From Natrinema versiforme (GTDB taxonomy: Archaea > Halobacteriota > Halobacteria > Halobacteriales > Natrialbaceae): 64,000 nucleotides of DNA. The notes below the pieces were generated by a model. That model ran no database searches. It had not been told where the DNA came from and saw nothing but the letters and a program-made list of their open reading frames with translations. Below, in pieces: positions 14,039 to 56,163 of this stretch; positions within the stretch are counted from its first letter, which is position 1, and each line of letters opens with the position of its first letter. The stretch is from assembly GCF_005576615.1 (NCBI RefSeq), contig NZ_CP040330.1:3348001-3412000 (forward strand), in the 5' to 3' direction. A program made the translations under genes and the position numbers.

Positions 14039-14144
14039 CGCCGAAGCCAGGACTCGAACCTGGGACAACCTCGTATCTGCGGCGGACAGGCAGTACCTGA
14101 GTCGCCGTAACAGCGAGGTGCTCTACCATCTGAGCTACTTCGGC
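14039..14144 (-). tRNA. tRNA-Asn (GTT) with a 33-nt intron
   Basis: The acceptor arms GCCGAAG and CTTCGGC pair fully and the T-loop is TTCGAGT. The anticodon stem CCTCG/CGAGG is interrupted one base after the anticodon by an intron at 14075-14107. Removing it restores the loop CTGTTAA and a 73-nt tRNA. The intron ends pair (CGGCG with CGCCG), as expected for a bulge-helix-bulge splice site. Confidence 0.9.
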
Positions 14145-19116: not shown

Positions 19117-19189
19117 GTCCTGATAGGGTAGTGGACTATCCTCTTGGCTTGCGGAGCCAGGGACCGGAGTTCAAATCTCCGTCAGGACG
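19117..19189 (+). tRNA. tRNA-Arg (GCG)
   Basis: Acceptor arms GTCCTGA and TCAGGAC pair fully; the anticodon loop is TTGCGGA between TTGGC/GCCAG; the T-loop is TTCAAAT. It has no intron. The 3' 21 bases reappear downstream (see the repeat at 19248-19439). Confidence 0.92.
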
Positions 19190-19247
19190 TTTCTCTTCAG
19201 CACAACACTGCGAGCGTAGCGAGCAGTTCGTACTGAAGGAACCTCTA

Positions 19248-19439
19248 ATACGGAGATTTGAGCAGACGAGTCGCAGTCCGGGAGCGAACGCAGTGAGCGA
19301 CCCGGAACGTCTCGGCGTGTTCAAATCTCCGTCAGGACGCTCACTTATCGCGGGCGCTTCGCATTGCTCAGCGCCCGCTCTCGGGTTCGGTCCTGACTGC
19401 CCAACGCTCACTTCGTTCGCGTTGGACTCCGTCAGGACG
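19248..19439 (+). repeat. tRNA-Arg 3'-end copies with hairpin spacer
   Basis: The last 21 bases of the tRNA (19169-19189) recur exactly at 19319-19339, and the last 12 or so recur at 19428-19439. The first copy is preceded by an inverted fragment of the T-arm (CGGAGATTTGA, near 19251) and a spacer with GAGCGACCCGGAACGTCTCG. The same spacer precedes the tRNA-Ile copies at 55 kb. No coding sequence is seen here. Confidence 0.75.
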
Positions 19440-19907: not shown

Positions 19908-20158
19908 ATCAGAACTGAGCGTGACAGCGAATAAATAACTTCTGTCAGAGGTTTCTGCGAGGATAGCGACCGCTCGAGTACGAAACTGGGTGAGAGGAGT
20001 AAGCCCCCTTCTGTTCGTCCCGGCATTCGGCTGAGCGTCCGCGCCGCCCGCGGCGGTGCCGCGGCGCGTTCGGGCTACCACGGCGCGGACTTGCACCGGT
20101 GAGGATTCGCCGTTCCATCGCTCCTCGGCCGTCCGTGTGCGGTCGATCACGACGAACG

Positions 20159-20194
20159 TGACCCGTGGATTCGAACCGCGGTTTGATAACCGCA
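20159..20194 (-). pseudogene. tRNA 3'-end-like remnant
   Basis: On the minus strand a GCGGTT..AACCGC stem is followed by GGTTCGAATCC and a short acceptor-like end. This resembles the variable arm plus T-arm of a Ser or Leu tRNA, but no 5' half is present upstream. It could be a decayed tRNA or an attachment-site remnant; a chance hairpin cannot be excluded. Confidence 0.35.
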
Positions 20195-20383
20195 CACTGC
20201 TCGCGGCGAATGCCGCTCGCTCGGTCGGCGGTTCGCACCGCCTCACGGTTCGCGGTCCATCGGACCGCGCATCCCTCTGCGGGTTCGCTCCCCTTCCTCT
20301 CGGTCGGGTTCGCACGCATCATCGGTCGGGCCGAGACGTGTCGTTTCTGTTCCAGAGCCAGCGGTCTCCCGCTCCGGACTTGC

Positions 20384-20525
20384 GTCCGGTCACCTGCCCG
20401 AACAGGTGGGGGGACTTTCCTCGCGAGCGTGGCGCATCTCGAAGAGATGGGCCACGTTAGGTGCGTTGGGCACCTCGGAGAGGTGGCCAACGTTGTGCGC
20501 GTCGGTCACCAGCATGGGTGCCGAC
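20384..20525. repeat. Chain of hairpins, three on a 36-nt period
   Basis: Three hairpins begin at 20429, 20465 and 20501. Outer stems are GTGGC/GCCAC, GTTGG/CCAAC and GTCGG/CCGAC; inner stems are CATCTC/GAGATG, CACCTC/GAGGTG and CACC/GGTG. The bases differ but pairing is kept. A fourth, looser hairpin (GTCC...CACCTG...CAGGTG...GGAC) lies at 20384-20415. Confidence 0.65.
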
Positions 20526-54960: not shown

Positions 54961-55034
54961 GGGCCAATAGCTCAATTAGGTTGAGCGCCACTCTGATAAG
55001 GTGGAGGCTCTCGGTTCAAATCCGAGTTGGCCCA
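54961..55034 (+). tRNA. tRNA-Ile (GAT)
   Basis: Acceptor arms GGGCCAA and TTGGCCC pair fully; the anticodon loop is CTGATAA between CCACT and GGTGG; the T-loop is TTCAAAT. CGCTTAAACG about 45 bp upstream is the likely promoter. The 3' end is repeated downstream. Confidence 0.93.
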
Positions 55035-55077
55035 TACTTTTACGACGAGCAAACCCGCGAGTCGTAAATATGGAATC

Positions 55078-55301
55078 CGACTCGGATTGAATTACGGAAG
55101 ACGCACGCTCACGAGCGAAGCGAGTGAGACCGTCTTCAGGTGGGTCAAATCCGAGTTGGCCCACTTCTCGCGGCGAACAACTTCGTGAGCCGGGAGTGTG
55201 TGCTGCCGCGAGGATTTGAATTACACGAGTCGCAGGCCCGGGAAGCGAGTGTAACGAGCGACCCGGAACGTCTCGAGGTGGTTCAAATCCGAGTTGGCCC
55301 A
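55078..55301 (+). repeat. Two tRNA-Ile 3'-end copies with hairpin spacers
   Basis: The 3' bases of the tRNA (TCAAATCCGAGTTGGCCCA) recur at 55145-55163 and, with two more bases on the left, at 55280-55301. Each copy is preceded by an inverted T-arm fragment (ACTCGGATTGAA near 55079, AGGATTTGAA near 55213), so each unit can form a long hairpin. The second spacer includes GAGCGACCCGGAACGTCTCG, shared with the tRNA-Arg repeat region. Confidence 0.75.
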
Positions 55302-56163
55302 TTTTTGTTGCGAACAACGTGAATGTAGTGAGCTGTGAGCAGCAGAGGTACACTCGCGAGCGCAGCCAGTAGGGCCGTCCGCAACCGGGTCGGTCCGATG
55401 GGAGCCCGCTCAGTTTCTGAAGAGTTTGTAGATACTCGATACTGTCAGGTCTGACTCACAGTCGTTGATATCCAATCGGGTATACCGATCAACTCCGCCA
55501 TGTCACACGTAGTGAAACTAATGTCTGGAACTCGGTTCTGATCCATACACACAGACCTATCACTATTAGGTACAATATGATTTCTATATGGTTGATATCC
55601 GAAATCGCGAAACGCACGATACAATAAGGGAACGAGTTCCATCGAAAGTCCGGGAGATCGATCGCTCCGGATCGCGTTAGACGCGGCGGTTCGCGCTTCG
55701 AGCAGACGATCAGTGAAGCCGTCTATATGTTATGTATAGGATGGAGCGGTGCATATATACCGTATTTAATAACAAAATAGAATTGGAAGGGGGATTTTCT
55801 CTAATTTTGTCCAGCAAACGATTCGCTTCGATCCTGTCCGTCTCTCCGAGAGAGCAACCGATTCAGAGGGTATTCCATCGATAAGAATTTCGACCTCGAG
55901 AGATGAAATACTGGAACAGTAGTACTGTTGCCTATATATTTGAGTAGATATTACTGACTACATACCATATTACATACTTTTCAAATCCGCAGCGCTACCA
56001 ACCGTGGACCGGTCCCGATATTCCTTCTTACTGACAGTCGATAGCAATCCGTCATAGTCCCGATGCAAGGTGATCGATTAGACAACTTCCGCTCGAGACA
56101 GTACAGACAGAACAGATCATAGATATAGGTTTTCTAACTATTCTGCTAACATTCATTGGAGAG
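55302..56163. other. AT-rich gene-free interval
   Basis: About 860 bp without a credible gene, visibly AT-richer than the neighbours. A 65-codon frame at 55445-55642 is not convincing. It lies between the tRNA-Ile end copies and the catabolic cluster. It may be the scar or edge of a decayed element, or long regulatory DNA. Confidence 0.45.

Follow-up and report, generated by a model that had tools for sequence, protein, structure and literature searches.

Tail-hairpin units behind tRNA genes of Halobacteria resemble an undescribed family of tiny gene-less cassettes

Described systems with related features

Integrons carry cassette arrays that are defined by attI and attC sites and the gene intI, and their recombination sites have the ends RYYYAAC and GTTRRRY. 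Behind a tRNA in the E. coli tyrT operon, the rtT repeats (Rfam RtT) form tandem units, each with approximately 19 nt of the tRNA 3' end; to our knowledge, they occur at this one tRNA locus in enterobacteria and have neither an inverted copy nor a core common to many tRNAs. REP/RAYT palindromes and the MITEs derived from IS200/IS605 are short non-coding hairpins that are present in many copies per genome and show conserved mismatches. In archaea, proviruses and islands that depend on tyrosine recombinases are associated with attachment-site duplications at tRNA genes (PMC3119063, PMC8371274).

The units reported here were analysed starting from a 64,000-nt stretch of the Natrinema versiforme genome (contig NZ_CP040330.1, positions 3,348,001 to 3,412,000), which is called the window below. 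All units have one build: a T-rich stretch with a hairpin (H1) is followed by the T-loop and T-stem of the tRNA, copied in inverted orientation (TAIL', typically GGATTTGAAY), then by a core hairpin with the conserved internal loop AGWCGCAG / GAMCGTCT, and finally by a direct copy of tRNA nt 53-73 (TAIL), with a T-rich stretch after each TAIL. Including one tail, a unit is approximately 70-250 nt long, and its interior of 51-228 nt (median 109) is too small for an integrase gene.

Like the attachment-site duplications of proviruses and islands, the units carry the tRNA 3' end as a direct repeat downstream of an intact gene, with tRNA function retained. However, approximately 110 nt instead of kilobases separate the tails, no integrase gene is included, the tRNA end is copied in inverted orientation, too, a hairpin core is shared, and arrays exist at about half of the tRNAs. 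Among the features that characterize islands, a direct repeat at both ends and a precise empty site in relatives were found, but neither an encoded integrase nor other genes. With integron arrays the units have in common a fixed platform, polarity, an imperfect hairpin resembling a recombination site, unrelated neighbours and distal decay; they differ in that no ORF and no intI were seen, the platform is a tRNA tail, the arms copy the host gene, and the ends TTTGAAC / GTTCAAA or TTCGAAC / GTTCGAA do not fit the integron consensus. The rtT repeats are likewise tandem, tail-bearing and situated behind a tRNA, whereas our units occur at many tRNAs, contain an inverted copy and a shared core, and lack an Rfam match. 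As in REP/RAYT palindromes and IS200/IS605-derived MITEs, short multicopy non-coding hairpins are involved, but those elements lie dispersed in intergenic DNA and copy no target, whereas the units sit at gene 3' ends with a 21-nt target copy.

Units in the window and throughout the Halobacteria

Two tRNA genes of the window, for tRNA-Ile and tRNA-Arg, are followed by units with the parts listed here in window coordinates.

54961..55034, + strand: tRNA-Ile (GAT), host gene (ARAGORN, Rfam); the copied tail, nt 53-73, lies at 55014-55034 (repeats)
55035..55068, + strand: Ile unit 1, T-rich start and hairpin H1 with the stem TTTTACGAC / GTCGTAAA (fold, inverted repeat)
55069..55091, + strand: Ile unit 1, TAIL', the T-arm/tail of tRNA-Ile inverted (TATGG..ACTCGGATTGAA; inverted repeat with 55019-55046)
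55092..55142, + strand: Ile unit 1, core hairpin TTACGGAAGACGCA...GACCGTCTTCAGGTG (match of covariance model R1 at G000:C2:3403077-3403163, E 1.5e-12)
55143..55163, + strand: Ile unit 1, TAIL, direct copy of tRNA-Ile nt 53-73 with 1 mismatch (repeats, tail-copy search)
55164..55202, + strand: Ile unit 2, T-rich start, H1-type sequence and linker
55203..55220, + strand: Ile unit 2, TAIL' (..GAGGATTTGAA; inverted repeat)
55221..55280, + strand: Ile unit 2, core hairpin TTACACGAGTCGCAGG...GAACGTCTCGAGGTG, common to the Arg unit (82% to Arg unit; R1, E 5.7e-14)
55281..55301, + strand: Ile unit 2, TAIL, exact direct copy of tRNA-Ile nt 53-73 (repeats, tail-copy search)
55302..55408, + strand: third, decayed Ile unit with H1-type TTTTTGTTGCGAACAACG... 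and a degenerate tail (inspection; exact end uncertain)
19117..19189, + strand: tRNA-Arg (GCG), host gene, with its tail at 19169-19189
19190..19249, + strand: Arg unit, T-rich start, H1 and linker
19250..19262, + strand: Arg unit, TAIL' ACGGAGATTTGAG (inverted repeats)
19263..19318, + strand: Arg unit, core hairpin AGACGAGTCGCAGTCCGGGAG...GAACGTCTCGGCGT (R1, E 6.4e-14)
19319..19339, + strand: Arg unit, TAIL, exact direct copy of tRNA-Arg nt 53-73 (direct repeat)
19427..19439, + strand: partial extra tRNA-Arg tail CTCCGTCAGGACG, probably a decayed unit (direct repeat)

The original prediction, that one spacer module occurs twice and is joined each time to the local tRNA 3' end in direct and inverted orientation, agrees with the sequence in its coordinates and orientations, and the near-sameness of the two spacers was recovered in a DNA search, in which the Ile unit as query matched the Arg unit (whole unit, 19190-19339) with 82% identity and an E value of 1e-9. 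As direct repeats, the last 21-23 nt of tRNA-Ile recur at 55142-55164, where the 21-nt tail has 1 mismatch, and without mismatch at 55280-55302, and a tail with 7 mismatches was counted further out, near 55487. For the Arg unit, the repeat analysis places the inverted arm at 19250-19261. The third Ile unit is followed by the flank CTCAGTTTCTGA, which by inspection is also present in the empty sites of relatives. Two further RNA genes of the window may be mentioned: the gene of the archaeal RNase P RNA (19992-20440, minus strand; Rfam) lies approximately 650 nt past the tRNA-Arg unit, and at 14039-14144 (minus strand) Rfam reports a tRNA missed by ARAGORN, the length of which (106 nt) suggests an intron.

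The pattern extends genome-wide and class-wide, beyond the two cases noticed originally. We located the tRNA genes genome-wide and searched their surroundings for the last 21 nt of each tRNA. Downstream copies with at most 5 mismatches were found at approximately 20 chromosomal tRNAs, with 1-3 copies per unit-bearing tRNA, about 80-300 nt downstream and in the same sense as the tRNA; upstream of chromosomal tRNAs, the same threshold gave no copies except within the own array of a duplicated tRNA, so that the downstream copies far exceed a chance occurrence. When matches of the covariance model are counted in, approximately 22 tRNA genes have units, whereby the numbers of tRNA genes and units vary with the threshold. 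R1 gave 34 matches in this genome at E<1e-3, two of which represent the opposite strand of palindromic units, and all but one are located behind tRNA genes. Overall, the family comprises approximately 35 copies in the genome and occupies about half of the chromosomal tRNA genes. Across genomes sampled from the phylum, R1 matched in 71/72 Halobacteriales genomes and in none of 224 genomes outside this order, where few candidates were scored per genome and weak matches could be missed. An exact scan for the pattern GACCGTCTTCN5GTTCAAATC in one genome of each of 84,980 species (GTDB-wide) returned 111 stretches, 108 of them in Halobacteria from at least 7 families; the remaining three are regarded as chance rather than family members, because R1 finds nothing in them. 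Among 116 pattern matches, 96 have a tRNA on the same strand within 700 nt upstream, and 9 lie at the edge of the locus. Viral contigs gave no units, only chance pattern matches to which R1 does not respond.

Because R1 includes the tail, the core alone was searched for in addition. With this tail-free pattern, a tRNA precedes 8/9 hairpin-type cores of the N. versiforme genome, the remaining one being an orphan unit (L098), which excludes that the spacer is as frequent away from tRNA genes as behind them. In three other genomes, 16/21 cores were found behind a tRNA, one of them via a tRNA 3' part missed by ARAGORN. The other five comprise two cores behind truncated tRNA tails, one behind an apparent aspS gene and two (L357, L358) with no recognisable host end.

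The borders of the copied segment are sharp. In 281 copies, the identity to the host tRNA is 0.90-0.99 across nt 53-73 and 0.24-0.44 at positions -5 to -2, outside the 5' edge; the selection of these copies at no more than 5 mismatches inflates the inside values but leaves the contrast at the edge unaffected. Position -1 reaches 0.73, its base being frequently G in both copy and tRNA, and past nt 73, within the T-rich stretch, identity is 0.3-0.6. Exact TAIL copies were present in 186/278 units. TAIL' tracks the local tRNA as well: the A or G at T-loop position 4 agrees in 0.95 of cases vs 0.68 with random partners, and the local T-stem is matched at 0.59 vs 0.37 in the control, while the local acceptor strand is hardly followed. 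In contrast to these local arms, near-identical cores (93-98%) exist behind different tRNAs and in different genera and families. Hence, the arms are a property of the site, and the core is a property of the family. Such copies of tRNA 3' ends could also call to mind the primer-binding site of tRNA-primed reverse transcription, but this does not fit, because the copy stops at the discriminator base without CCA.

Some related observations concern loci at the margin of this distribution. On a 492-kb contig outside the window (G000:C3:23121-25911, minus strand), approximately 14 tRNA-like genes are packed in less than 3 kb without tail units, which resembles a tRNA array of a plasmid or virus. 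At three loci (L151, L268, L278), tRNA-Gly-like 3' halves (CTTCCAAGCTCATGGCCCGGGTTC...) with no recognisable 5' half precede units. Moreover, a second repeated module, CACTTTTTCCGAGGGGCTGC...CTTGGGGAAAAAGACC, was seen near tRNA units at L123, L125 and L140 (G035) and, in a similar form, at L107 and L108 (G027).

Pairing of the hairpin and the transcript reading

The pairing of the hairpin is well conserved. In an alignment of 26 units (A1), 85% of the cells pair, whereas sliding the partners leaves no more than 42%, and both sides have changed in 20/27 pairs. A larger alignment of 143 distinct matches, nearly all from other genomes, gave 88% pairing cells and changes on both sides in 23/27 pairs, with double changes in 499 cells vs 173 in shuffles, whereby this alignment was fitted to the R1 model and contains some opposite-strand matches. 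These alignments exclude that the hairpin is unpaired in relatives, as pairing is kept through compensatory change. A single-base gap opposite T60 of the tRNA recurs and accounts for 21/43 single deletions. Tandem G-A is found in many of the hairpins, which was noticed when a K-turn or K-loop was considered.

This covariation is strong and speaks for the main rival to cassettes, a structured RNA domain in tRNA trailers. According to this rival, which we consider doubtful, read-through from the tRNA gene would produce H1 and the TAIL'-core-TAIL hairpin, which would act in termination, in 3' processing or as a small RNA. The tail copy would be retained for its role in building the hairpin stem. 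A transcript would explain that the units are always found downstream and in the sense of the tRNA and that each tail is followed by a T-rich stretch, and it is consistent with the slower decay of the stem part of the copy, which in first units has 0.015 mismatches per site, compared to 0.041 in the acceptor part. Other results argue against an RNA function. The element is dispensable, since within one genus the number of clear units behind tRNA-Ile ranges from 0 to 2. Mutations in tail copies are mostly uncompensated, with 24 partners following the tRNA and 13 following the copy. G-U pairs show no consistent excess over A-C mismatches: the numbers are 11 vs 11 in the core and 8 vs 16 in the apical part, compared to 14 vs 5 in core plus apical part of A1, and the ratio of 159 vs 69 in the arms is driven by few fixed positions. 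Finally, the units belong to no Rfam family; searches at the gathering score in the window and at E<=5 at the Ile locus returned only tRNA and one sub-threshold match on the opposite strand of the tRNA.

Neither these G-U counts nor the structure lend support to the second part of the original prediction, a transcribed hairpin with a tRNA-like 3' half that could be recognised by processing enzymes. A 7-bp acceptor stem was not found in the copy, where ungapped complementarity at acceptor positions is 0.26-0.38 vs 0.19-0.31 in the control; some units retain only the outermost acceptor pairs, and the acceptor strand of the copy is almost unpaired. The first part of that prediction, a mini-element targeting tRNA ends, is well supported, so that the interpretation as a whole stands in part.

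Arrays, displaced units and possible mobility

We favour, at roughly an even chance, the view that the units form a family of short cassettes without genes, spread across the class, which enter or recombine at the 3' ends of genes, above all of tRNA genes. This reading is backed by the common anatomy, the conserved pairing, the near-exclusive location at tRNA 3' ends, the exact local tails, the shared cores, the polar arrays and one filled/empty pair that is precise to the base. A cassette would consist of H1, TAIL' and the core hairpin and be bounded on both sides by one 21-nt tRNA tail (nt 53-73). Because the same tail stands on both sides, it could enter or leave without harm to the tRNA, as is the case for attachment sites of integrases. 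New cassettes would join beside the tRNA and displace older ones outward, where their tails decay. Movement would depend on a site-specific recombinase or on an equivalent linked to replication, which would recognise the conserved hairpin as a structure in DNA; the most plausible candidate is a tyrosine recombinase that acts at the T-loop/tail. The polarity of the arrays would then have the same cause as in integron arrays.

The composition of the arrays is consistent with stepwise growth. Adjacent cores resemble each other no more than randomly paired ones do (0.589 vs 0.600), and near-identical tandem neighbours are found in only 6/73 cases, which indicates that most arrays have not grown by tandem duplication. 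The tail nearest to the tRNA is better preserved than the far-end tail in 31 cases and worse in 7, with 34 ties (two-sided sign test approximately 1e-4, own calculation), which fits stepwise addition beside the tRNA.

At tRNA-Ile, 25 genomes of the genus, in all of which the upstream DNA was matched, carry from 0 to 2 clear units. The filled/empty pair stems from this comparison: one unit is present at locus L180 but absent from L169 and L183, and downstream the loci are homologous from the first base past the tail onward. Mapped on a tree of RNA polymerase (beta region), presence and absence need approximately 6 changes (gains or losses), at least 4 of which are forced by well-supported branches; the pattern could be mostly losses through the direct repeats, which counts against cassettes. 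The same holds for the H1 types, which by inspection recur genus-wide in varied order and with varied core combinations and therefore point to old resident arrays with loss and shuffling.

Such arrays could have been shaped by ordinary homologous recombination, unequal crossing-over and gene conversion only, with cores swapped via the shared ends GATTTGAA/TTCAAATC and no dedicated mobility, an explanation which we regard as unlikely. It would account for the common H1 types and their different orders at tRNA-Ile across the genus, for precise losses through direct repeats and for the few near-identical tandem units; also the similarity of cores, which is somewhat higher within than between genomes in two of three genomes, is in line with it. 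But, it leaves unexplained how the first units with their sharp boundaries at nt 53 and 73 originated, why neighbouring cores are unrelated, and why a unit of the same build exists behind a protein gene. Cassettes face a related difficulty: a whole unit moving to another tRNA would bring the wrong tail, and hence the sharing of cores between tRNAs needs an extra step, for example gene conversion.

The unit behind a protein gene (L352; G314:C1:692400-694100) follows a gene whose product end, judged from its translation, reads as aspartyl-tRNA synthetase, presumably aspS. It lies at approximately 690-910 on the minus strand and has the conserved core, and the 3' end of the gene is copied directly and apparently also inverted. 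Our own count gave 25/29 matching positions between the copy and the 3' end of the gene, and a tool alignment gave 17/20 for its core. Hence, sequences other than those of tRNAs can be copied at the site, and by analogy to attachment sites in 3' ends of protein genes this unit may be taken to favour cassettes. An orphan unit on the minus strand (L098; G000:C2:3039000-3041500) has significant local direct and inverted arm copies, while no tRNA was found nearby. The two cores L357 and L358 (G028) share similar G+C-rich flanks and have neither tail copies nor a recognisable host gene end.

Other units away from intact tRNAs adjoin integrase genes at the far end of integrated elements, which also favours cassettes. 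In Haloarculaceae, three units (L215, L218, L259) lie 170-530 nt past a tyrosine recombinase gene and a truncated tRNA-Ala tail, and the recombinases of the two loci tested belong to Pfam Phage_integrase; at L365, inspection revealed a similar gene end with a truncated tRNA-Tyr tail. In our reading, the integration of an element into the tRNA moved these units to the far end of that element. Integrase genes were observed only beside such displaced units. No recombinase has been linked to units at intact tRNAs, beside which no systematic search was made, and no excised circle is known; both count against cassettes.

The neighbourhood of displaced units and integrase genes could also suggest that the units are scars or attachment arms of many independent proviruses and integrative elements using tRNA 3' ends. 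Archaeal integrases indeed favour tRNA 3' ends, and the SNJ2, pR1SE and HSTV2 integrase families are confined to Halobacteria (PMC8371274). Nevertheless, such an origin is very improbable, given interiors that cannot hold an integrase gene, the same conserved core at so many tRNAs in nearly every Halobacteriales genome, the viral contigs without units, and the displaced units themselves, which carry only approximately 10-14 nt of tail on the integrase side compared to the 21-nt repeat of the units.

As a more far-reaching version of the cassette reading, we tentatively consider it possible that Halobacteria have a class-wide integron-like system, in which 3' ends of tRNAs and rarely of protein genes would be platforms for gene-less hairpin cassettes, moved by a putative recombinase and with arms re-templated from the local gene.

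Our literature search, which covered the field incompletely, returned attachment-site duplications of proviruses and unrelated work but no published description of tail-hairpin units, so that these look like an undescribed family of tiny gene-less cassettes at tRNA gene ends. A conserved structured element that stands behind about half of the tRNA genes of one haloarchaeon and occurs throughout an archaeal class has thus apparently no name. If it is RNA, it would be a common domain of haloarchaeal tRNA transcripts and bear on the annotation of tRNA ends, small RNAs and partial tRNAs. Mobility would make it a recombining unit of very small size, in which the origin and retargeting of tRNA attachment sites could be studied in a natural setting; arms templated anew by the local gene would mean that a mobile element adapts to its site in a novel manner. 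On either reading, the tRNA-tail duplications of haloarchaea should not be taken simply for provirus scars.
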